Origin: a virus
Direction: 5' to 3' (one strand)
DNA length: 64,000 nt
IMG/VR virus record: IMGVR_UViG_3300026484_000295
Span: 108,405 to 172,404 of that record
Shown: one piece after another, positions 36,592 to 62,700 of the stretch
Position numbering within the stretch: position 1 is the stretch's first letter
How the letters are laid out: each line of letters starts with the position of its first letter
Notes under the pieces: generated by a model
Seen by the model: only the letters and a program-made list of their open reading frames with translations
The model's database searches: none
Told to the model about the DNA's origin: nothing
Position numbers and translations under genes: made by a program

Positions 36592-38835
36592 ATGATGGCT
36601 CAACCTTTGATGATTCAATCAATAGTGACTGATAATAGAATAACTGCAAAATTTTCTGATAATGAATTGCCTAAATATGCAAGGCACGGTGAATTATATG
36701 TTGTCAATGGTGTATTATATATTTATGTTGATTTAGATAATACTGGTTCAGATATAGGTCAATGGTTTCCTATGACGTATGAAAAAGAAATTGTTATGTA
36801 TGTTGAAGTTGAAGAAAAGAATATATGGTCATTTCCTATATCATTTTATACTCATAATATACATGTTATTGTATATGATCAAAATGATAGAGTGTACACA
36901 TCCAATTTTAACTATACTATTGAACATGGTATAATGACTTTATCTTTTAATGAATCAATATCAGGGAAAGTCTATATTATTATGGATAAAGGTTTTGATT
37001 GGGTTGATTCGTCATTAATCGTTTCTGATAGAAAATTTGCTATAACTTCAGATGAAAATAATTTTTATTATATTGAAGTAGATACTGAAAATTTATCTAT
37101 TGATAAAAATGGTAAAATTATTATTAAAAACGATTTATCTGTAAATGGTAATTTAGATATTAATGGTGACATAAATATTACTGGTGATTTAAAAATAATG
37201 GGTGAAAATGTTGAAATAGAATCTTCAACATTAACAGTCTCAGATAATGTAATAACGTTAAATAACGGTTTTGTAGGTTCACCGTTTCAAAATACCGGTA
37301 TAGAAATCGATCGTGGAAGTTTGGGTAAATTAAATATTCTAACTTTTAATGAAACGATGGATTATGTTGAAATTCCAGTTATAGATAGTGATGATGTTAT
37401 TAATCAAGAAGAAGTAGCTACCAAGCCATTTGTAAATAATTCAATATCAGATGAAACTAATAGAGCAACAGCTGCTGAATCTACTTTACAAACAAATATA
37501 GATAATGAAGTTACTAGAGCTCAAGCTGCTGAAACTACATTACAAACAAATATAGATAATGAAGTAAACAGAGCAACAACTGCTGAATCTACTTTACAAA
37601 GTAATATTGATAATGAAGTTACTAGAGCTCAAGCTGCTGAAACTACATTACAAACAAATATAGATAATGAAGTAAACAGAGCAACAACTGCTGAAACTAC
37701 ATTACAAACAAATATAGATAATGAAGTAAACAGAGCAATTATAGTAGAAGGTGATATTAATAAATTACAAACTAACTCTAAATTAAATTTGGTTTCTGCT
37801 ATAAATGAAAATGTTGAAAGTATTAATGTTGAAAAAGAACGCATTGATTCAATCTTATCGGCTAGTGATGCTGACAAAGATTCATTTGCAGAGATAGTGT
37901 CATTGATAAATTCGGTTGATATTGAAAATGATGATGTTTTCGCTAATTATGTTTTGGTTAATGATGAACGTAGTGATAATATTGAACAGTCAATATCAGA
38001 TGAAACTAATAGAGCAACAACTGCTGAAACTACATTACAATCAAATATAGATAATGAAACTAATAGAGCTCAATTAGTGGAAGCTGATTTAAATAGTGGG
38101 ATTTCTACATTAACAACAAATATAGAAACAAATTTTCTCAATAAAACAACATCGGCTGAACAGATTATAAATCCTAATTTAAAATTAGATGGTTCAATAC
38201 TAACATGGTCCTTATCAACAGAATGGTTTTATTATTCTCTAAATGAAAATCTGACTACTATCGATATTATTAGTAGTACAAATATAAATGAATATATTTA
38301 TACTATGGATACTATTGAGACTATTAAATTTAATAAAAATGGTCAAATATGGTCGGTATTGTACGGTAATTTAGAAGAATATTTCTTAGGTATTAATAGT
38401 CAATCTAAAGATAGTTTATTACTAAATGGTTTAAATGAAACACAATTTGTACGAACCGATATAGACACTACTATGAATGAAAATTACCATATATTGAAAG
38501 ATTTAACCGTAGATGGTACACTTACAGCAGGAACAATAATTGAAACATCTTCTATTAAATATAAAGAAAATGTAAAATTGATAGAAACACCATTAGAAAT
38601 TGTATCTAAATTAGATGGAGTTCGATATACATGGAAAGATACAAAAAAAGATGATATTGGATTTATTGCTGAAGATGTTAATTTAGTACTTCCCGAATTA
38701 GTTCTAATTGATAATGGTGAAATTGAAGGAATGAATTATTCAAAAATAACTGCTGTTTTAGTTGAAGCTATAAAAGAACAACAAAAACAAATTATAGAAT
38801 TGATGAATGAGGTAAAAAAATTAAAAGGAGAATAA
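36592..38835 (+). CDS. Tail fibre protein with C-terminal S74 intramolecular chaperone
   Basis: 747 residues. N-terminal part (about 1-210) has a GELYVVNGVLYIYVD attachment-type module and a beta domain. DINGDINITGDLKIMG and LTVSDNVITLNNG follow, as in the fibre at 21014-22339. Residues 284-383 and about 467-500 are 18-residue repeats of type NRATTAETTLQTNIDNEV, a trimeric coiled-coil shaft. The C-terminal 95 residues are a Peptidase_S74 domain: S653 with K658 form the Ser-Lys dyad, then DGVRYTWKD, IGFIAEDVN and ITAVLVEAIKEQ. This domain folds the fibre trimer and then cuts itself off. A start at the second ATG (36595) is equally possible. Confidence 0.88.
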   Translation: MMAQPLMIQSIVTDNRITAKFSDNELPKYARHGELYVVNGVLYIYVDLDNTGSDIGQWFPMTYEKEIVMYVEVEEKNIWSFPISFYTHNIHVIVYDQNDRVYTSNFNYTIEHGIMTLSFNESISGKVYIIMDKGFDWVDSSLIVSDRKFAITSDENNFYYIEVDTENLSIDKNGKIIIKNDLSVNGNLDINGDINITGDLKIMGENVEIESSTLTVSDNVITLNNGFVGSPFQNTGIEIDRGSLGKLNILTFNETMDYVEIPVIDSDDVINQEEVATKPFVNNSISDETNRATAAESTLQTNIDNEVTRAQAAETTLQTNIDNEVNRATTAESTLQSNIDNEVTRAQAAETTLQTNIDNEVNRATTAETTLQTNIDNEVNRAIIVEGDINKLQTNSKLNLVSAINENVESINVEKERIDSILSASDADKDSFAEIVSLINSVDIENDDVFANYVLVNDERSDNIEQSISDETNRATTAETTLQSNIDNETNRAQLVEADLNSGISTLTTNIETNFLNKTTSAEQIINPNLKLDGSILTWSLSTEWFYYSLNENLTTIDIISSTNINEYIYTMDTIETIKFNKNGQIWSVLYGNLEEYFLGINSQSKDSLLLNGLNETQFVRTDIDTTMNENYHILKDLTVDGTLTAGTIIETSSIKYKENVKLIETPLEIVSKLDGVRYTWKDTKKDDIGFIAEDVNLVLPELVLIDNGEIEGMNYSKITAVLVEAIKEQQKQIIELMNEVKKLKGE
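37450..37736 (+). repeat. 54-bp tandem repeats in the fibre shaft
   Basis: About five copies of an 18-codon unit, with copies alternating so that some 108-bp double units are nearly identical at DNA level. A further partial block is at 37990-38070. Copy number change here would alter fibre length. Confidence 0.85.
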
Positions 38836-39846
38836 ATGTTTTCATTACCTATATACCCTGATCTTGAACCGAAGTATATTAGAGAAGAATTTATCCCTTT
38901 TTTAAAAAAACATAAATCATTAATATATGATTTATATTTTACAGTACGTATTCCACCTTTTGAACAAGATGCTATGGGTAGTATATTTAGTGATGAAGAT
39001 ATACCATCATTAATTTCTAATGCTTTAATTATTCAGAATGAAACAAAAATACCTATTTCAGCTGTATTTAATAATATTTTTATATCTCCATCAGAGAAAA
39101 ATTTAGATATATTTATTAAACATTTTACACCATTATATAATTTGGGTGTTAAATCGATAACAATTCCTTTTACCTCATGGCTTATGTTTGGTAAATTACA
39201 AAAATCTTTTCCTGATTTATATATAAAAAATACAGTTTTGCAAAGTGTATCTGAACCAAGAGAAATTTACAATCTAGCAATAAATGGATTTGATTATATT
39301 AATTTAGATAGAAATTTATTACGTAATCAAAATAAACTTAAAATTATAGATAAAGCCAGAAAAGCTGCAGAATTAAAATTGGGTAAGACTATTAAACTTA
39401 GTATTTTATTTAATGAGAACTGTATAGGTAATTGTCCTATACAGAATGAACATTATTTATACAATGTACATAATGATATTAAAACCCAACCAAATATTTT
39501 TTTTAAATCGTCAATGGGTAAAATTAGTTGTCTTGAATGGGAAAAGAAATCTCCAGAGTTACTATTAAAAAAAGCATCAGTCATAAATGATGAGAAATTT
39601 ATGAACGGTTTAGAAATGATTGATGCATTTAAACTTCATGGTCGTGAATCTAAAAATGTTTTTTTAAATAGCTTAAATATAATTAAATCTACGTATGACA
39701 AAACCGAAATAATAGATGAGTTATATTATACTCGTATTAAATATAATATAAAAGATATTGAATATCATACATGGATAGAAAAAGTAAAAAATTGTAATTT
39801 TGATTGTTGGGATTGTACTTATTGTGATGATTTATTTAAAAAATGA
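38836..39846 (+). CDS. Fe-S TIM-barrel-like protein (peptidase U32-like)
   Basis: 336 residues. The pattern is that of the U32 (UbiU/RlhA-type) family: a barrel strand GVKSITIPFTSW, then NLAINGFDYINLDRN, then LFNENCIGNCPIQNEHY with C196 and C200, C232, and a DAFKLHGRESK segment (264-273) resembling the U32 KIEGR motif. A second Cys cluster, C320-x3-C324-x2-C327-x2-C330, ends the protein. U32 relatives bind a 4Fe-4S cluster and take part in hydroxylation of RNA or quinones. Its place between a fibre and a methyltransferase, with no gap from the fibre stop, suggests a role in modifying fibres or host surface, but the substrate is unknown. A radical-SAM type enzyme was considered, but no CxxxCxxC near the N-terminus is present. 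Confidence 0.5.
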   Translation: MFSLPIYPDLEPKYIREEFIPFLKKHKSLIYDLYFTVRIPPFEQDAMGSIFSDEDIPSLISNALIIQNETKIPISAVFNNIFISPSEKNLDIFIKHFTPLYNLGVKSITIPFTSWLMFGKLQKSFPDLYIKNTVLQSVSEPREIYNLAINGFDYINLDRNLLRNQNKLKIIDKARKAAELKLGKTIKLSILFNENCIGNCPIQNEHYLYNVHNDIKTQPNIFFKSSMGKISCLEWEKKSPELLLKKASVINDEKFMNGLEMIDAFKLHGRESKNVFLNSLNIIKSTYDKTEIIDELYYTRIKYNIKDIEYHTWIEKVKNCNFDCWDCTYCDDLFKK

Positions 39847-39847
39847 T

Positions 39848-40474
39848 ATGAATGCAGAATTAATCCATACTATCAGTAATAGAAATATACTTCCTAATAA
39901 TATATATCGAATAGAAGGACTAACTAGTTTTAAAACTCAAAATATATTGGCTGAATTAGCAAGAAATAAGGATGTATTAGAAATAGGTAGCTTATATGGT
40001 GCAACTACTCTAGCATTATCATATTATGCAAAAGAAGTTACGACCATAGATAATTGGTCTGATATTGAAATTTTACCAATAAAAAATAATATTAAAATAA
40101 AAAAAACTGTAATAAATAAGACATATGATATATTTAAAAATAATATAAAATCTATTGATAATATCAAATTAATTGTTGGTGATATTTTTTCAAAAAAAAT
40201 TTGGTCTAAATTAAGATTAAGAAAATTTGAGTTGATATTTTATGATGGTCCTCATAATGTTAAAGATATTATACAGTTTATAAATTTATATTCATTTTTA
40301 TTTAAGAAAGATACTATATTGATTTTTGATGATTATAATTTTGATGCTGTTCAAAAGGGAATAAAATATGGATTTGAAACTATAAATATAGAAATAGAGA
40401 AATCGATTAAAATAGAAACTGAAGGTGAAAGTAAATATGAAATATGGAATGGTATTGCGGTTTTTCAATTTTAA
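39848..40474 (+). CDS. Class I SAM-dependent methyltransferase-like protein
   Basis: 208 residues from the ATG at 39848, one base past the upstream TGA, which suggests coupled translation; an in-frame ATG at 39800 inside the upstream gene is possible but less likely. DVLEIGSLYGATTLALSYYA (motif I, SAM binding), VTTIDNW (acidic residue after strand 2), KLIVGDIF (strand 4 region) and ELIFYDGPHN with ILIFDDYN match the Methyltransf_24 type, whose members often modify small molecules or sugars. It is clustered with fibre genes and the Fe-S protein. Confidence 0.7.
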   Translation: MNAELIHTISNRNILPNNIYRIEGLTSFKTQNILAELARNKDVLEIGSLYGATTLALSYYAKEVTTIDNWSDIEILPIKNNIKIKKTVINKTYDIFKNNIKSIDNIKLIVGDIFSKKIWSKLRLRKFELIFYDGPHNVKDIIQFINLYSFLFKKDTILIFDDYNFDAVQKGIKYGFETINIEIEKSIKIETEGESKYEIWNGIAVFQF

Positions 40475-40485
40475 AAGGGATATAA

Positions 40486-41556
40486 ATGGCTGATTTGATA
40501 AAAATAGAAACTGTTGATGGTCAAGAAGTAATTGATTCTAATGCTCAAGTTAATTATGATGCAATTTCTAATATTCCTCCAGCTTTAGTTGATACTAGTA
40601 CTCATAATCATGATAATGAATATATGAGTAAAAATACTATTGAAGATGAATTTACTCGTATAATGAATAAAGTAGCATCTCTAACAAAGGCATTAACTAT
40701 TAGACCATTAAAAACAAAAGGTTTTTTAAACGGTGGTTATAAAAGTGGATATGTTTATGCACAAAGAGTTCAACGTTTTAATACTGTTACTGAAACTGGA
40801 GTTGAAATCGGACAAATAGGTACAGTTGCATCGTATTATACACCTGGAGCTTCATCGGAATTGAAAGGTTATTATTTTGGTGATGCCAATAGTAGTACAA
40901 AGGGTGGAGATCATACTAGAACAGGGAGAGATTTAGATAAAATTACATATTTAACAGAGGTAGAAGAATATTTAGGAAATATTACGTTGCATAATACAAA
41001 ATCAACAATCTATAATATCTATTCACAGTCTAAAATATTTTTATCAAATGCTGATGCAGGTTGGTCTAAGTTATCTGTTCTGACTGATACTATTGATAGT
41101 GTATCGTCTACACTTAATGGGTATGGTATGGGAAGACAAGGTTTATCTTCAGAAACATTTGGATATGTTGTTCAAGCTGGTAATTATGAAAGAACTTCAT
41201 TAAAATTTGATTATTTAACAAATGTAACAGATACTGGTACTACACAGCAGATTAGACAGCACCCTGCTGGACTTTCAAAAGATAAAGATAAAGGTTATTG
41301 GATAGATTATGGAACTGCTAATAATTGGCGAGTAGATATGTTGAATAATACTGTATCTAATATCGTCTGTTTTACAGAAGGTTTCGGTGAAAGTAATGCG
41401 TTAGGGTCTGAGAAAGAAGGGTTTATGATGGGTGGCTATGATGGTGCACAGCATGGGAAAGTTCAAAAAATGGTATGGGAAACAGAGACTGCTAGTAATG
41501 TATTGGGTGGATCATTAGCAATACCACAATCATCAGCTGGAATGGCAGAATCATAA
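40486..41556 (+). CDS. Fibre-like protein with HxH module and repeated beta units (paralogue 1)
   Basis: 356 residues. The N-terminal ~65 residues include ISNIPPALVDTSTHNHDNEY, a module shared with the next two genes. The rest has repeated units with aromatic Gly motifs (GGYKSGYVYAQRVQRFNTVTE, FGYVVQAGNYERTSL, GFMMGGYDGAQHGKVQKM), each followed by a T-E segment, like blades of a beta-propeller or a repeat solenoid. This looks like a receptor-binding head. An AAGGG site precedes the ATG. No enzyme motif seen. Confidence 0.65.
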   Translation: MADLIKIETVDGQEVIDSNAQVNYDAISNIPPALVDTSTHNHDNEYMSKNTIEDEFTRIMNKVASLTKALTIRPLKTKGFLNGGYKSGYVYAQRVQRFNTVTETGVEIGQIGTVASYYTPGASSELKGYYFGDANSSTKGGDHTRTGRDLDKITYLTEVEEYLGNITLHNTKSTIYNIYSQSKIFLSNADAGWSKLSVLTDTIDSVSSTLNGYGMGRQGLSSETFGYVVQAGNYERTSLKFDYLTNVTDTGTTQQIRQHPAGLSKDKDKGYWIDYGTANNWRVDMLNNTVSNIVCFTEGFGESNALGSEKEGFMMGGYDGAQHGKVQKMVWETETASNVLGGSLAIPQSSAGMAES

Positions 41557-41567
41557 GGTAATAAACA

Positions 41568-42554
41568 ATGGCAAAATTAAACCGACTTAAAGTAGATAAT
41601 AATAATATATTTGATACTGATAACAGGATAGATTGGACAAGATTTAAAAATATACCATCAACTTTAGTAAGTGCTTCCGGACATAATCATGATGATTTAT
41701 ATTACAAATCGTCGATAGTTAATGATAAATTTAAATTGGAAGAGGATAAGCTTGATTTGCTTGAAAAACGTATTGAAGTATTATCCTATAAAACAGATAT
41801 AATGATGGCAGGTGGACTATTAAATAACACTAAAATACATAATTATAATTTTTCAACTGAAGTAACTAGTGAGATTTCAACAAATACTAATATGATAAGT
41901 ATTAATGCTCCTGGTATTTCGTCAAAAGAATTTGGTTATTTTACTAATACAGATAGAATAATTGATAAATTTTATCACTTTACATTAACAATTGAATCGG
42001 TTCAACAATCAAATATTGAACCAAAAGCATCATTAATAGATTTTGCTGTTCAAAGCTTAGGTTTTATTACGGATGGTATTGGTTGGAATAAACTCAATCA
42101 ATTATTAGATATATGGGAAACTAAAAGTGATAATCCGGTTGATGTATCTGGACGACCATTTTTATCATCTAGTGTTATTGGGTATTGTAAGGGGTCAGAC
42201 TTAGGTATGGTAAAAGAATTAACATATACAACAGAAGTATTAAAAGAATTATCAGAGATAAGAACAATCGGAATAACAACAGGCCTAAATAAAAGTTCAA
42301 ATTTAGGTTATTGGATTTCAAAAATAAATGGTAATTATGAGCATAATTATCTAACAGAAAGCTTTAGATCAATAAATATTTTTATAGATGATATGGATAA
42401 TTCATCAACATCAACAACTGAATTTTTTGGTATGATTGTAGCAGGAGGAATAGATGGTGATTTAACTAATAAATTGATGTGGTCTACTCTTTCAATTACA
42501 CAATCTGTATCTCTTTCTTTAAATAAGAGTGGAGCCAGTTCAATAGAACTATAA
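41568..42554 (+). CDS. Fibre-like protein with HxH module (paralogue 2)
   Basis: 328 residues. Same organisation as the preceding gene: N-terminal FKNIPSTLVSASGHNHDDLY module, a short coiled coil (KLEEDKLDLLEKRIEV), then units with MMAGGLLNNTKIHNYNFSTE, FGYFTNTDRIIDKFYHFT, IGYCKGSDLGMVKELTYT and MIVAGGIDGDLTNKLMW. The two proteins are clearly related but strongly diverged in the distal repeats, as expected for receptor-binding parts. It starts 11 bases after the first paralogue. Confidence 0.65.
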   Translation: MAKLNRLKVDNNNIFDTDNRIDWTRFKNIPSTLVSASGHNHDDLYYKSSIVNDKFKLEEDKLDLLEKRIEVLSYKTDIMMAGGLLNNTKIHNYNFSTEVTSEISTNTNMISINAPGISSKEFGYFTNTDRIIDKFYHFTLTIESVQQSNIEPKASLIDFAVQSLGFITDGIGWNKLNQLLDIWETKSDNPVDVSGRPFLSSSVIGYCKGSDLGMVKELTYTTEVLKELSEIRTIGITTGLNKSSNLGYWISKINGNYEHNYLTESFRSINIFIDDMDNSSTSTTEFFGMIVAGGIDGDLTNKLMWSTLSITQSVSLSLNKSGASSIEL

Positions 42555-48255: not shown

Positions 48256-48762
48256 ATGGATGAATTAGCACCAGGTCTGATATATCTTTCTGATTTGAAT
48301 AAACTTGTATATTCAAACTCATATATTATAAATTCTGGAAGTAAATTGAGTTCAATTTCTAATGATTTAGGAACATATGCTGAGTATATTTCAGACGATG
48401 ATAGAGATTTATTATATGCAAAGTCTATTGGAGTTAAAGTTTTTAATGAGATAGTAAATGAATTTGATTATTCGCTTATAAATGATATTGATACTGATAG
48501 AGAAATTGATAAATTAAAAAAACAATTTTCTGAATTAAGTGATTTAATTGAAGATGAATATGATTATATCAAGTTATCAGCGCATAATATTCTTTTATTA
48601 AAAATGGCTTTTATACTTAAAAAACATTTAGATTCATTAAATACATCAGTTTATTTAATGCGTGGATCTGGAGTATCATCATTCATATTTTATTTAATAG
48701 GTTTAAATAAAGTCAACCCTATTAAATTTGGGTTAGATTATAAAAATTTTTGGAATAATTAA
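48256..48762 (+). CDS. DnaE-like protein: N-terminal palm part with RGS motif
   Basis: 168 residues. The C-terminal part, VYLMRGSGVSSFIFYLIGLN (133-152) and NPIKFGLDYKNFW, matches the DnaE palm segment GPGRGSGAGSLVAYALxIT, DPLxxxLLFERFLN. RGSG lies at 136-139. The preceding helix pair (NILLLKMAFILKKHLDS) fits the YFLIVxDFIxWAK region. The protein ends immediately before where the catalytic PDxDxDF motif would be; that motif begins the separate protein at 28862-29512. No PHP domain precedes it. This fragment lies directly before the gp55 gene (overlapping an alternative gp55 start). A role as one half of a split polymerase, or a non-catalytic regulator derived from it, is possible. Confidence 0.7.
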   Translation: MDELAPGLIYLSDLNKLVYSNSYIINSGSKLSSISNDLGTYAEYISDDDRDLLYAKSIGVKVFNEIVNEFDYSLINDIDTDREIDKLKKQFSELSDLIEDEYDYIKLSAHNILLLKMAFILKKHLDSLNTSVYLMRGSGVSSFIFYLIGLNKVNPIKFGLDYKNFWNN

Positions 48763-48773
48763 TGGAGAATAAA

Positions 48774-49379
48774 ATGGAAGAAGAAGTATCAACAGAACAG
48801 GTTAAAAAAAAGGGTCGACCTAAATCAGAGCATTATGTTAAAGAAAGCGAATTAAGAGATGAAATTGCGATAGCCCAGCAAAATGCTATAAAGGCTATTG
48901 ATGAAATCACCAAAGAATGGGATAAAAAAATTGAAAATGCATCAACAGAACCTGAAAAAGAAGCATTGCGAATTGAAAAAGAAAAAGCTTTAAATAGAGC
49001 AAAGACCAAAACGTACTGTACCCCAAGGTTAGGTGAAATTGTAGTATTAACAGTTGATAGAGTCGGTACACAAACAAAATTTAGACATTATACTTATTTA
49101 GATGATATGAAAGCTGAAGCTATTTATCAATCCATTAGAGGTATTATAAAATTTAATTTAGATAAAACAAATGATGCTGGACAAAAAAGTTCATCATTTT
49201 CTTACCTTACACAAATCATTACAAATGCATTTAGGCAAATTTTAAAGAAAGAAAAGAAAAATAGAGAAATAAAAGATCAGGCAATTGAAATGGCATTAGA
49301 TCAACATAGTGATATTGATGTTGATTTTGAATCTATAAAAAGAAAGAAAGATCGTTTAGATATAGCACATAGAGATTAA
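48774..49379 (+). CDS. 55: Late transcription sigma factor gp55-like
   Basis: 201 residues from the ATG at 48774, which has GGAG at a good distance; an in-frame ATG at 48762 overlaps the upstream stop. T4 gp55 is 185 residues and directs host RNA polymerase to TATAAATA. Similarity is clearest in DDMKAEAIYQSIRGIIKFNL and SSFSYLTQIITNAFRQILKKEKK, which match the T4 MIADGIEASIKGLHNF and [20 protein letters not shown] regions (sigma region 2-like). The many perfect TATAAATA boxes in this window support the call. The N-terminal 70 residues are highly charged and longer than in T4. Confidence 0.88.
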   Translation: MEEEVSTEQVKKKGRPKSEHYVKESELRDEIAIAQQNAIKAIDEITKEWDKKIENASTEPEKEALRIEKEKALNRAKTKTYCTPRLGEIVVLTVDRVGTQTKFRHYTYLDDMKAEAIYQSIRGIIKFNLDKTNDAGQKSSSFSYLTQIITNAFRQILKKEKKNREIKDQAIEMALDQHSDIDVDFESIKRKKDRLDIAHRD

Positions 49380-49387
49380 TTTTTAAT

Positions 49388-49416
49388 TTGATTTTAATTT
49401 TAATTTTTGTATAATA
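49388..49416 (+). promoter_or_regulatory. Probable host-sigma-type promoter for clamp gene
   Basis: TTGATT, a 16-bp spacer and TATAAT with an upstream TG (TGTATAATA at 49408-49416). This is the best match to a full -35/-10 promoter in the window. Confidence 0.6.
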
Positions 49417-49448: not shown

Positions 49449-50180
49449 ATGACATATTTTGAATTTTTAGATGATATCATAGAAAATTTTAGAGTTTCTA
49501 AAATGATTGAGATTGTTAAAATTGAACAAGACGTAGAGGAAAATGAATTACTTGCTGTTGCTTATGAAGCAACAAGAAGTTTAATTGTAGTTGCAAATTA
49601 CAAGGAGAGACCGGATATTGATATGCCTCAAATTCAAGGGTTTTCGCAATTAGATTTTGTCAAACAAATTATCAATATTGAAAAAAATGCTAAGAAAAGT
49701 TCTGTTAAGTTTAAAGAGAATGATGAATTAGCAGTTGAAACTATTTTTAAAATGGATGCTGCTACTATTAAAAATAAAAATGTTGCAAAGTCACTTCTAC
49801 CTGAAACACCTAAAAAACTTTCAGGATTCAAACCTGATATTGAAGTAGATTTAACATCAGAGGATATTTCATCTATTGTTACACATTTAAGTCTTAATAT
49901 TTTTAATGCTAGTGTATTTTTAACAAAATCATCAAAAGGTAAATTAAGCTTTAAACTTACAAATGATGTAGATACTGTTGATTATGATACTGACTTTGAT
50001 GTTGAAGACGGTATTCTCGAAGAACCATTTAAAATTGATTTAGAGAGATTACTTGCTATTTTAAGAGTTGGTAAAGAAGGTGTTAAAGTTGCTATTTCTG
50101 AAGGCCAAAATTTAGCTAGAATTATCAAAGAAGATGATAAAGCAGAATATAAATATTTTATGATTAAAAAAGCATCATAA
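49449..50180 (+). CDS. 45: Probable sliding clamp, gp45-like
   Basis: 243 residues against 228 in T4. The beta-alpha-beta layout and spacing fit a T4-type clamp monomer: an N-terminal FEFLDDIIENFRVSKMIEIV unit, MPQIQGFSQLDFVKQIINI (like the T4 DLNGFLGILSLV segment), a central proline linker, then DLTSEDISSIVTHLSLNI (like T4 KAEDLQQLLRVSRGLQ), and a final strand KYFMIKKAS. The clamp tethers the polymerase and, in T4, also activates late transcription with gp55, whose gene is just upstream. Identity to T4 is low, so structure-level comparison would decide. AAGAAGGG precedes the ATG. Confidence 0.7.
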   Translation: MTYFEFLDDIIENFRVSKMIEIVKIEQDVEENELLAVAYEATRSLIVVANYKERPDIDMPQIQGFSQLDFVKQIINIEKNAKKSSVKFKENDELAVETIFKMDAATIKNKNVAKSLLPETPKKLSGFKPDIEVDLTSEDISSIVTHLSLNIFNASVFLTKSSKGKLSFKLTNDVDTVDYDTDFDVEDGILEEPFKIDLERLLAILRVGKEGVKVAISEGQNLARIIKEDDKAEYKYFMIKKAS

Positions 50181-50185
50181 AAAAC

Positions 50186-50222
50186 AATCCTCCTATATAA
50201 ATAAAGAAAGTATAGGGGGATT
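50186..50222 (+). promoter_or_regulatory. Late promoter embedded in an RBS-sequestering hairpin
   Basis: A 12-bp stem (50186-50197 with 50211-50222, one G-U pair) encloses a 13-base loop. The perfect late promoter TATAAATA is at 50196-50203, and the right arm carries the GGGGGA ribosome binding site of the next gene. Read-through RNA from the clamp gene would fold and hide the site; late RNA starting near 50210 would lack the left arm and leave it free. T4 genes e, soc and 49 use this logic. Confidence 0.65.
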
Positions 50223-50228
50223 TAAATT

Positions 50229-50843
50229 ATGATAAATAGTATAAATGATATTGATAAAATTCTATTAGAATTTAATTTAGAAAATTACAATAATCAATAT
50301 ATTGATGATATTATAAATTATATATTGGTAGAAAATAGTACTGTTTCATCATTAATTACAGAAATCCCCGAAATTATATCCAGTAAAAAAATTTTTGATG
50401 GTCAATTTGATTATTCGTTTGATCCAATATTAAACGAAAGTAATATATTATTAGTTGAATTAGTCCAGCCAATAATCGAAAAAGTCATTCCATCACATAT
50501 ATATAGAAGTTTTACTAATTTACATATAAATCACATAACTTCAGAAATATTAAATATTGATATTAGTGATGTTATAAATATTAATGAAATTAAAGAAAAA
50601 ATAGCTGAAGCCTTTTTATCTGGTAATATCACAATACCTGTACAATCTTTACGAACCGAACTTATTACAGATAATACAGTTAAACATGGGTTATTTGCAC
50701 CATCATTGTTTAAACTTGTAAAGTTAGATAAATTAAGTACCGCTAAAACTATTAATGATTTAGTTTACTCACTCGATACTGATATATATAAAATTAATAT
50801 TATCTCAAAATTATTACAAATAAAAAAGGATTCTATATGCTAA
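50229..50843 (+). CDS. Unknown late protein
   Basis: 204 residues, mainly helical, with Ile/Asn/Asp-rich composition (ILVENSTVSSLITEIPEIIS; LLVELVQPIIEKVIPSHIYR). No family recognised. It is controlled by the hairpin-embedded late promoter just upstream and overlaps the next gene by seven bases, so the two are probably made together. The strict late control suggests a virion or lysis-time role; no transmembrane segment typical of a holin is visible. Confidence 0.65.
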   Translation: MINSINDIDKILLEFNLENYNNQYIDDIINYILVENSTVSSLITEIPEIISSKKIFDGQFDYSFDPILNESNILLVELVQPIIEKVIPSHIYRSFTNLHINHITSEILNIDISDVININEIKEKIAEAFLSGNITIPVQSLRTELITDNTVKHGLFAPSLFKLVKLDKLSTAKTINDLVYSLDTDIYKINIISKLLQIKKDSIC

Positions 50844-51454
50844 CAGAAGAATTACGTATATTAGCCGGATTACAAGAATCAAAAGAAATAATAAATCCAT
50901 TACCAAAAATAATTAAAAATGAAGAAAATCATAACAAATTAATTAAATTACGTAAAGAAAATGAACAAAAAACGATATTAAGCCATTTTCAAATATTTGA
51001 AAATAAATTTGATAATGTATTAAATATAATAAAGCGATTTGATAATTTGATAAAAAATAAAGATATATTCATGGATGGTATAATAGACGGTAAATATCAA
51101 TACTTACAAAAAGCAATTGAAACAATGATAAATGATTCTACCGTAGACTTTATGAGATTTATAAAAAATAATAAAGCTAATTTAATAAAAGAATTTGATA
51201 GATTTGATTGTATTAAAGTGAACATAGATGAATCGAAGCTTAAGGATTTTTTTGTAGCATCAGATTTAAACAAGACTTTATATACAGATATTTCATTAAA
51301 AGAGAAAAAAGATAATATTGCTATTGAATATGGAGATCATATTTTAATATTGGATGGAGATTTGGCTATTATAAAAAAAAATAATAAACGTTTTTATTTT
51401 AAATTAACAGAGAAAGAAATTTTATATATGATAGATAATAATATATTATTATAA
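50837..51454 (+). CDS. Unknown late protein
   Basis: 205 residues. The beginning, MLTEELRILAGLQESKE, is a short amphipathic helix; LQE followed by Ser at residues 12-15 would fit the prohead protease preference. The middle is Lys/Asn-rich and helical, and the end has a beta segment (YGDHILILDGDLAIIKKNNK). Family not recognised. AAAGGA overlaps the end of the previous gene and acts as its ribosome site. Confidence 0.65.
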   Translation: MLTEELRILAGLQESKEIINPLPKIIKNEENHNKLIKLRKENEQKTILSHFQIFENKFDNVLNIIKRFDNLIKNKDIFMDGIIDGKYQYLQKAIETMINDSTVDFMRFIKNNKANLIKEFDRFDCIKVNIDESKLKDFFVASDLNKTLYTDISLKEKKDNIAIEYGDHILILDGDLAIIKKNNKRFYFKLTEKEILYMIDNNILL

Positions 51455-51504: not shown

Positions 51505-52071
51505 ATGAACATAACACGTTATATACAAGAATTATCTCTATTAGAAGAATCTGAAAGAAAATCATATATTACTCATTTAGAAATAAAAAATTATGGTTCA
51601 AATGAATTAACTGAAACTGAAATGTGGATATTAACAAATGCTAGTCAAAATGCAGAGTATCTTAATGATAAATTAAAAGAAGCCGAAGAATTATCATTGG
51701 ATTTAGAAGCTCCAGAAGAAACAGAAGAAGTAACTATTGAACCTGATTTGACCGTGGATGATGAAAGTGATAGTGAAGAGTTAAGTTTAGATATACCTAT
51801 AAACCCAGAATCAGCAACTGAAATAGACTCTGATACTACTAATGATGAAAAAAATACAGAATTAAGTTTAGATATATCTGATGAAGAATCAAGTGAAAAT
51901 GATCAAGTAAGTACAGATAAAGATTCATCAGAGAAAAAAGAAATAGAAACTTCAAAAGAAGGAATTGGTATCCTACCTTTATTAGGTGAAATTCAAGAAA
52001 AATTAGCAAATGGTAAACCATCAGAAGTTGAATTAGCAGCACTTAAAGCATTAAAGAAATTAGTAGGTTAG
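51505..52071 (+). CDS. Acidic late protein with ELSLD repeats
   Basis: 188 residues. Residues about 65-150 are extremely acidic and contain three copies of an ELSLD(L/I) unit spaced 30 to 35 residues apart (about residues 66, 95 and 124), in a probably disordered region. The C-terminal 35 residues form a helix (VELAALKALKKLVG). The N-terminus is helical. Such short repeated acidic-hydrophobic motifs can be docking sites for a partner protein. AGAAGGA and a perfect late promoter precede it. No family recognised. Confidence 0.65.
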   Translation: MNITRYIQELSLLEESERKSYITHLEIKNYGSNELTETEMWILTNASQNAEYLNDKLKEAEELSLDLEAPEETEEVTIEPDLTVDDESDSEELSLDIPINPESATEIDSDTTNDEKNTELSLDISDEESSENDQVSTDKDSSEKKEIETSKEGIGILPLLGEIQEKLANGKPSEVELAALKALKKLVG

Positions 52072-59391: not shown

Positions 59392-59760
59392 ATGGGACGA
59401 TTAACGGAATTATTGTCATCTAATAATGTGATTGTGGATAAAATAAAGAAAAACACATTAATTAAAACAATAGAGACTAATAACACAATTAAAAGAGAAA
59501 TGGATACCATAGGTACATTGACATTTGATGAATATCAAACAGTTAAAGATTCTATAAAACAAATTGATATGCGTAACAAAACAAGAAGAGAGATCATAAT
59601 AGGTATGTATGGAAATATTACTAATCCTAAAACTAATAAACGTTTTGTTATACCTATGCTTTCATACCAAGATGAAGATTATATATATCAATATGCAAAG
59701 TATATGAAAACATTAATTAATAGACCTGAAGAGTTTACAAAAATAATGGAAATGGAGTAG
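59392..59760 (+). CDS. Small unknown protein upstream of AAA+ gene
   Basis: 122 residues, basic, helical, with IKREMDTIGTLTFDEYQTVK and MRNKTRREIIIGMYGNITNP. No family recognised. AGGAGAG lies before the ATG. The next gene, the double AAA+ ATPase, starts three bases after its stop, so it is the first gene of that operon and could be a partner of the ATPase. Confidence 0.65.
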   Translation: MGRLTELLSSNNVIVDKIKKNTLIKTIETNNTIKREMDTIGTLTFDEYQTVKDSIKQIDMRNKTRREIIIGMYGNITNPKTNKRFVIPMLSYQDEDYIYQYAKYMKTLINRPEEFTKIMEME

Positions 59761-59763
59761 GAA

Positions 59764-62700
59764 ATGAATAAATTGAAATCTATAATTTTAACAGAAGCGT
59801 CATTACATGATAAAATAACATCTAGAGCAAAAATAACATATGATGCATTAATAGCAATAATTTTAGCAACTGATGAAGGAAAAATCACAGATAAAAATAA
59901 GAAAGAAATAGCTGATGAATTGGATATTACCGTTCCTACATTAGAACGTTATATTAAACAAGCAGTATCAAATAAATTTATTAATTCATCAGGCGAAATT
60001 TATGACAAGTATAAAAAAGAATCTACTGGTAAAGTAAAAGCATCAGGAAAAGTATCTCAAGCATTAAATGCTAGAGTTAAAAAATTTAAAGCTCCAAAAG
60101 TTTCTTCTAATAATTTATTTTCTGAACAAGTATTTAAAATGTTGTCGTTAATGGAAGGTCAAGCTGCACAAGCCGGCGTTAAAAACTCATTAATGCTAAC
60201 AGGAGATCCTGGAACTGGTAAAACTTCATTCATTCGTAACTTTGCAAAACTATTAGGTCTGCCACTTATTCCAATAGAAGCTCCACATATTACAGAAGAG
60301 CATATTATAAATATCCCTTTTATGATTATTAATGGTAATAAAGTAAAAAAAGAAAATGCTATTATTGAAACTGCTGAAACAGCTAATTTAAATGACAAGC
60401 AAGAATTTGATATAGTACAAGCAGAATCAAATTTAGTTACTAAATTGAAAGCTATGAAGAATTTAAAATTAAAAGATCAACAACATATAGCATCAATAGC
60501 TAGTGATAAAAACTTAAGACCTATCTACTTAAATTATAAATCATTGATTGATTCTATTAGAGATAGTTACCATTGTATTTTATTTTTAGATGAATATTAT
60601 AGAAATGATAATATGAAAATTAGAAATATTCTTAGAAATATTCTAAATGGTAGGATAGGTAATGATAAAATACCAAAAGGTACTTTTATTGTTTATGCAT
60701 CAAATATGGAAGATGATGGTGTTGAAGATATTCCTATGAATAATGATTTTGCGGAAATGGAATTTAAAACACCTGATAGAGAACAATGGTTTAAGTATAT
60801 TTTAAATAAGTATGAAGAAAATTCAGGAAATGATTATCCTGGTGTTAAACTACAACCAGAAGTATTTAATAAATTTTATGATGTATTAGAACAATCCGAT
60901 TTATCGTATGAGGATGCTACAGCAGAAGTTAGAAATTCGCCAAGACGATGGGAGCAAATTTTATTATATGTTAATGCCTCTTTACCAGTATCAAATATTA
61001 AAGAAGCTAAAACATTAATGTCAAATTTACAAGTTAATTTTAGAAATTATACTGAAGAAACGGTCTCAAATTTATACCCAAAATTTGAAAAAATGGTAGT
61101 TGAATTGATTAAAGAAACTTCTGGTATTGAATTTGATGGTCGTCCTACAAATCAAGTTGATTGGAAAGATACTCTACAACAGCAATTAGAAGTTAAAATT
61201 AAATTAGACGGGCAAAGTGATTCTGAGAAAGAGGTACGACAGTATGTACCTGTTGTTTCGGGTGAACCAGGTATAGGTAAAACGGCTCATATGAGAACCG
61301 TAGCTGATGATTTAGATCTTTATTTTATTCATATTGATGTTTCTACATTAACTAGAGAATCAACAACTGGTATTCCTAAAGCAAGTCAAGCAACAGATAT
61401 TGATGGTAATCCAGAATTTGATCAGAATGGAAATCCTGTTATGACAACGGAATTTTCAAAACCTGAATTATTGGATTTAATTGAGAAAAAAATGCAAGAA
61501 GAGTTAGTTGAAGATGAAATGTTTCCGGAAGATCAAAGAAAAAAAGGTAAAGGTAAATATAAATTTTTACTATTATTTGATGAATTAACTAGAGCAGATG
61601 CTCAAGTTTTTAATGCTATTAGAAAATTACTTTTAGAAAAATCATTTAATGAACAATACGATTTACCTAAATCGATTATGACAGTTGGAGCATTAAACCC
61701 AGTTGATAATGGTGCTGAAGAATTAACAAAACATATGAGAGATGTATTGGACATTATTCCATCTAGAGCATCATGGGCTAAAACTGAATCATATCTATTA
61801 AGTGAAGAACGACCTGTTGGATTAGAAGAAGTTATGGGATTTGATTTAAATACATCAACTGTTGGTGCTCTGAAAGGTTTATTACAACAATACCAATCTA
61901 AAGATGAAGATTGGCGAGGAAACCCAGTTTCAAAAGAAGAAAGATTATTCAATTTACGAGATGGTTCAAATATAATTTATATTTCACCAAGAGAGATTAC
62001 AGATATTGTTACAATGACTAATGCTAATATTGTTAATAGATTAACAAAAGTTGGTTTAAAAAGTTTTTCAAGTGAAGTTCAATCTGAAGAAGTGGATGAT
62101 ATGAGTGATGATGAATTTATGCAACTTATGATGCAACAAGCTGAAAACCCAGATAGTGTAAAAGAAAAAATTGCTCAAGATAAGGGTCTTTTTAATTTGC
62201 GAAATAGATATAGTGAAGAAGATTATGAAATTTTTATAAGAGCTATGATTAATGAGTTTCGAGAAGCATGGGCTTCAAAATTAACTTTTATTTGTAAAAA
62301 AATGGATATTGATGCGGCAAATGTTTTATCATTAACAACAGGCTTTATATCTACAAATAGTATGGTGTATGATCAATATGAGGCTATCAAAACATTAGTT
62401 GTGGATGATGTTAAAAATATTGAAGAAATATTTGATGCGTATTGGGACAATCCTGAAGAATTGTATGATTCACCCCATTTCGATAATTATTTAACGGTGA
62501 ATTTTACAGCTCCCCAAAAATTCACACAAGAAATAACAGATTATTTAAGTGATAAATTGGTAGAAATTGAACAAGATACTAGTACTGCAATGGTGACTGT
62601 TGAATCTGAAAATGGGCCTGTGGAAATCCCTAAACATATAGCTAAAAAGATGGAATTATTTTACAAGTATATTCTATATACCAAATCAATATTAAAAGTT

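Follow-up and report, generated by a model that had tools for sequence, protein, structure and literature searches.

In phage T4, early read-through RNA of the lysis gene e folds and hides its Shine-Dalgarno sequence, whereas RNA made from late promoters that lie within the 5' arm of the hairpin is translated, an effect of about 100-fold (PMC3014915). This mechanism has been experimentally established for e (PMC3014915). The hairpin scheme has been described for I-TevI, I-TevII and I-TevIII, endonuclease genes embedded in an early/middle unit (PMC2988022), and for segB and Aeh1 mobE as well (PMC3014915, PMC2988022). T4 soc and gene 49 are listed as carrying a hairpin that masks the ribosome binding site (RBS), with a nearby late promoter (PMC3014915). 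Reviews describe the scheme for T4 and related phages, and several of the cases are homing endonucleases (PMC3014915, PMC2988022).

Here we analysed a stretch of 64,000 nucleotides (the window) from the 172-kb record of an AT-rich phage (27% GC). It is a large, deeply diverged T4-like phage; compared with named phages, its clamp found no match and its sheath reached at most 27% identity, and none of them appears close to it in sequence. Between a putative sliding-clamp gene and a gene starting at 50229 (gene 50229) stands a hairpin that, in our judgement, very probably acts as a T4-type translational timing gate on gene 50229. We folded the T4 leaders with the same code as the window locus. 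The I-TevII leader resembles it in having the motif TATAAATA in the loop or at the left-arm border and the Shine-Dalgarno sequence in the right arm; relative to TATAAATA, the left arm covers -12..+1 in I-TevII and -11..+3 in the window. The geometry of T4 e was likewise reproduced by the fold test, although e has two late promoters, its stem is shorter and interrupted, and it is a lysis gene where the window has a gene of no recognised function. Unlike I-TevII, I-TevI, I-TevIII, segB and Aeh1 mobE, the gated gene of the window is no recognisable homing endonuclease, and it follows the clamp gene rather than an intron or host-gene insertion. In soc and 49 the hairpin begins at or after the promoter and not around it, so that the likeness to e, soc and 49 drawn in a first-pass annotation of this DNA is geometrically close for e but not for the other two. 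The mechanism matches those of T4 e and I-TevII and is not a new one; what is new is a strongly conserved case of it in a distant phage lineage.

The hairpin and the genes around it

Gene calls were made mechanically. The features of the locus are as follows.

48762..49379, + strand: gene for a T4 gp55-like late sigma factor (PHROG late sigma families phrog_12791 and phrog_234, E 1e-18 and 2.4e-18)
49407..49415, + strand: early-type promoter element TTGTATAAT 5' of the clamp gene (sequence)
49449..50180, + strand: putative sliding-clamp gene, gp45/PCNA type (fold matches of the predicted model)
50186-50198, + strand: left arm of the RBS-masking hairpin (fold; compensatory change in relative G001)
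50196-50203, + strand: late promoter TATAAATA, spanning the left-arm end and the loop (motif enrichment before gene starts; precedes head and tail genes)
50199-50209, + strand: loop, 11 nt (fold)
50209, + strand: predicted late transcription start (from T4 spacing, with the first base of TATAAATA at -13)
50210-50222, + strand: right arm, masking the Shine-Dalgarno sequence (fold; unpaired probability)
50215-50220, + strand: Shine-Dalgarno sequence GGGGGA, 8 nt 5' of the ATG at 50229 (sequence)
50229..50843, + strand: gated gene, 204 aa, no recognised function (no match in family and fold searches)
50837..51454, + strand: next gene, 205 aa, whose start overlaps the end of the 50229 gene by 7 nt

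The sequence from the clamp end at 50180 to the ATG at 50229 is CAATCCTCCTATATAAATAAAGAAAGTATAGGGGGATTTAAATTATG. The hairpin starts 5 nt 3' of the clamp stop codon and has a local folding energy of -20.5 kcal/mol (z = -4.7), which none of 200 shuffles equalled; the observation at 50186-50222 is confirmed as real. The stem had been described as 12 bp long; it exists, but its length is 13 bp, including two G-U pairs. GGGGGA and a perfect TATAAATA were found where they had been reported, the former in the right arm and the latter running from the last 3 nt of the left arm into the loop. GGGGGA is a rare form of Shine-Dalgarno sequence in this phage, where GGGG precedes 3 of 157 genes. Rfam covariance models gave no match to the hairpin at E values up to 1, and a known RNA family was rejected on that result.

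At the sequence level, the clamp protein did not match clamp families. Its predicted model is of low confidence (pLDDT 39.5), but each of its 50 best fold matches in the PDB is a sliding clamp or a processivity factor, and T4 gp45 is one of them; we regard 49449-50180 as a candidate sliding clamp, identified by fold. The gp55-like sigma factor is 99% identical in G001 and 78% identical in G002.

The two promoter motifs separate replication genes from virion genes. Among ten annotated genes that carry a TTGTATAAT-type element are those for DNA polymerase parts, ligase, clamp loader, exonuclease, SbcD and thymidylate kinase; among ten that carry TATAAATA are those for the major head protein, portal, tail tube, tail sheath and a virion structural protein. 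As a word, TATAAATA is not rare in the window (34 found versus 33 expected); it clusters 15-60 nt before same-strand gene starts (25 on the same versus 5 on the opposite strand in the window genome), and this concentration recurs in the relatives. The most enriched upstream 8-mer in the four genomes is ATAAATAA. At the locus itself, the clamp has a promoter of the TTGTATAAT class (TTGATT-16-TATAAT, scoring 10/12) and the gated gene one of the TATAAATA class. The TTGTATAAT element before the clamp is also present in G001 and G002, and an early promoter motif looked for before the G003 clamp was not evident.

A probable timing gate kept through turnover of its arms

Under the proposed timing gate, RNA that starts at the clamp's early-type promoter and reads through would carry both arms, fold and hide the Shine-Dalgarno sequence of 50229. 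The late sigma factor would then activate the TATAAATA promoter, giving RNA that starts near 50209, lacks the left arm and can be translated. Through the gene overlap, which also occurs in G001 and G003 (7 nt), the gate would probably limit 50837 too. The known spacing of T4 late promoters places the start near 50209, beyond the left-arm end at 50198. The hairpin masks the Shine-Dalgarno sequence, a gp55-type sigma factor is encoded, and the gated gene lies 3' of a same-strand clamp gene (by fold) with a TTGTATAAT promoter. We infer the transcription start, the read-through from the clamp, the repression and the timing. From read-through to late RNA, the mean unpaired probability of positions -18..-6 is predicted to rise from 0.09 to 0.56 in the window, from 0.17 to 0.84 in G002 and from 0.02 to 0.48 in G003; the opening in G001 is small (0.24 to 0.31). 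The late gene at 51505 has a late promoter, but none of the four phages has a similar hairpin there, indicating that not every read-through target is gated. A second perfect TATAAATA lies at 50148-50155, in the last codons of the clamp, and is common to the window and G001 but not to G002 and G003. If active, it would give late RNA that retains the hairpin, and this would count against the gate.

We compared the window phage (G000) with three relatives, G001, G002 and G003; further relatives were sought in viral contigs and bacterial genomes, and just these three phages were usable. Their clamps are 98%, 78% and 73% identical to that of the window, respectively. In all four phages a hairpin stands directly 3' of the clamp, with TATAAATA at the border of left arm and loop and the Shine-Dalgarno sequence in the right arm. 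The stems pair over 13-18 bp around TATAAATA (15 bp in G002, 18 bp in G003), and the distance between the arms varies from 4 to 24 nt. The left arms match that of the window at 10 of 12 positions in G001, 5 of 12 in G002 and 6 of 12 in G003; the arm sequences of G002 and G003 are essentially unrelated to the window and still pair. Between G000 and G001, the arms show one two-sided compensatory change and one change from G-U to G-C, none of the 10 upper pairs is broken, and there is a bulge at the stem base. With two sequences, the shuffle control of this covariation is uninformative, and the weight therefore rests on G003 and G002. Judged by these comparisons, the pairing appears to have been kept by selection in the relatives, and the hairpin is conserved and most likely functional.

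The gated protein is 68% identical in G001 and just 29-34% identical in G003; conservation of the gate thus exceeds that of the protein behind it. The 204-aa gene was looked for in G002 and not found; there the ortholog of 50837 directly follows the hairpin, whereas the 50837 orthologs of the other three phages have no comparable hairpin. At this core junction of replication and late genes, the gate is retained despite deep divergence, complete turnover of its arms and even a different gated gene, which argues for selection on the timing gate itself rather than on a sequence. Between the genes corresponding to 50837 and 51505, G003 has an additional gene of 190 aa (L044:15653-16225), which the window lacks. 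Taken together, the architecture of the four phages with covarying arms, the promoter classes, the early-type clamp promoter and the geometry shared with T4 e and I-TevII lend comparative support to the first-pass proposal that read-through RNA would be silent and late RNA open. The locus also yields a clean covariation data set and a way to screen uncultivated phages computationally for early/late gating.

Other explanations of the hairpin

The hairpin might instead serve the clamp mRNA as an intrinsic terminator or 3'-end stabiliser and overlap the next RBS by chance. Its position right after the clamp stop codon and the few U's at its end (GGGGGAUUU; GUUUU in G003) would suit a terminator, and a strong 3' stem would protect the clamp mRNA. 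However, no terminator is called at the hairpin, the U-tract is absent in G001 (GUAUUAAA) and G002 (GAUAAUG) and none is conserved, and G002 has a real terminator nearby, with seven T's, between the sigma and clamp genes. The placement of TATAAATA and the Shine-Dalgarno sequence in the four hairpins also speaks against this explanation, which we consider improbable; an intrinsic terminator was rejected on the lack of a called site and of a conserved U-tract. A DNA operator would explain why the dyad covers the promoter, a repressor binding it there in the way that I-TevI binds its own operator, and I-TevI is a known case of a hairpin promoter under operator control (PMC2988022). It is difficult to reconcile with arms that change almost completely while complementarity is kept and the adjoining clamp remains 73-98% identical, with G-U pairs, which would be mismatched in a DNA dyad, or with the variable spacing of the arms. 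Arms that vary in sequence and spacing and keep their complementarity, G-U pairs included, point to RNA; the operator was rejected on these grounds, and we assign it hardly any probability.

It is also conceivable that the hairpin provides general insulation rather than early/late timing, the gene being translated just from its own promoter whatever the upstream RNA. Several other hairpin promoters do sit 3' of late or unclassified genes, which counts against a timing gate, and at two loci an early-type promoter lies inside an RBS-masking hairpin. The clamp locus, however, has an early-type promoter upstream, and the early-to-late junction is found in at least three of the four phages; at this locus, insulation without timing is very unlikely. 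The timing gate on 50229 remains the reading that we prefer.

Pairing statistics and hairpins at other promoters

A general fold test of the RBS region over all genes gave a weak enrichment of late genes (p = 0.02 at E <= -14 kcal/mol), and a sharper test that swaps left arms was therefore used. Among 268 late-type promoter sites in the four genomes, 8 pair their left flank with the RBS at -15 kcal/mol or better, compared with a mean of 0.32 and a maximum of 2 in 200 trials of left-flank swaps, a count in which orthologous G000/G001 sites are not independent. An earlier swap test on 74 exact TATAAATA sites agrees with this result. Per genome, the effect is clear in G000 and G001 and not in G003 overall, where hardly any site besides the clamp locus stands out. 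At the window locus, 1 of 267 foreign late-promoter left flanks reaches the observed energy, and when its own left flank is dinucleotide-shuffled, 24 of 6000 versions do so; no foreign flank reaches that of the G003 or the G002 locus, and 7 and 46 shuffles do so, respectively. An upstream gene on the same strand is present at all 11 sites at -13 or better versus 130 of 219 others (p = 0.008). Strong hairpins occur at 4 of 8 same-strand junctions from early-type to late-type genes, three of these four being the clamp locus; for the remaining exact TATAAATA genes the count is 8 of 95 (p = 0.006). The combination of TATAAATA and hairpin is far from chance.

In the window phage, hairpins around late-type promoters also precede 1182, 80975, 81450, 92865 and 59790, and those of the orthologous sites 59790/45405 and 81450/67311 keep their pairing through the changes between G000 and G001. 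The scheme had been presented as a single-gene site; it is present at 50229, but the design recurs at other genes of this phage, and the holin-like gene is possibly one of them. This gene (G000 59557-59790, - strand, L007:19557-19790; G001 45405, - strand) encodes a 77-aa holin-like protein (phrog_608, E 2.7e-4). Its TATAAATA lies inside a perfect hairpin whose stem is just upstream of the Shine-Dalgarno sequence and not over it, with compensatory changes between G000 and G001. At a 148-aa gene (G000 81003-81450 and G001 66864-67311, both - strand), the arms of the RBS-masking hairpin are not the same in the two phages but pair in both, and the promoter reads CATAAATA in one and TATAAATA in the other.

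Early-type promoters (TTGTAAAAT or TTGTATAAT) were also observed in the loop or at the left-arm border of RBS-masking hairpins, at G000 49890 (- strand, L007:8907-9890), G001 35510 (- strand) and G003 302763 (+ strand, L072:2763). Such hairpins at -15 or better number 3 versus 0.36 expected, the three sites representing two loci, one of them an orthologous G000/G001 pair. At G003 302763 a run of T follows the right arm, so a terminator is also possible there. One might extend the gate to a general portable module that serves several late genes including the possible holin, stands on the following gene in a phage without the gated one, is built around early-type promoters too and makes a gene blind to all RNA but its own; we regard this extension as tentative and rather doubtful.

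Elsewhere in the window phage, at G000 37288-42331 (L006:17288 to L007:2331), the DNA polymerase appears split. The downstream half begins with an intein-C-like stretch (FFANNILVHN/SC), and genes of 102 aa and 317 aa lie between the halves, the 102-aa gene having a late promoter with a weak hairpin.
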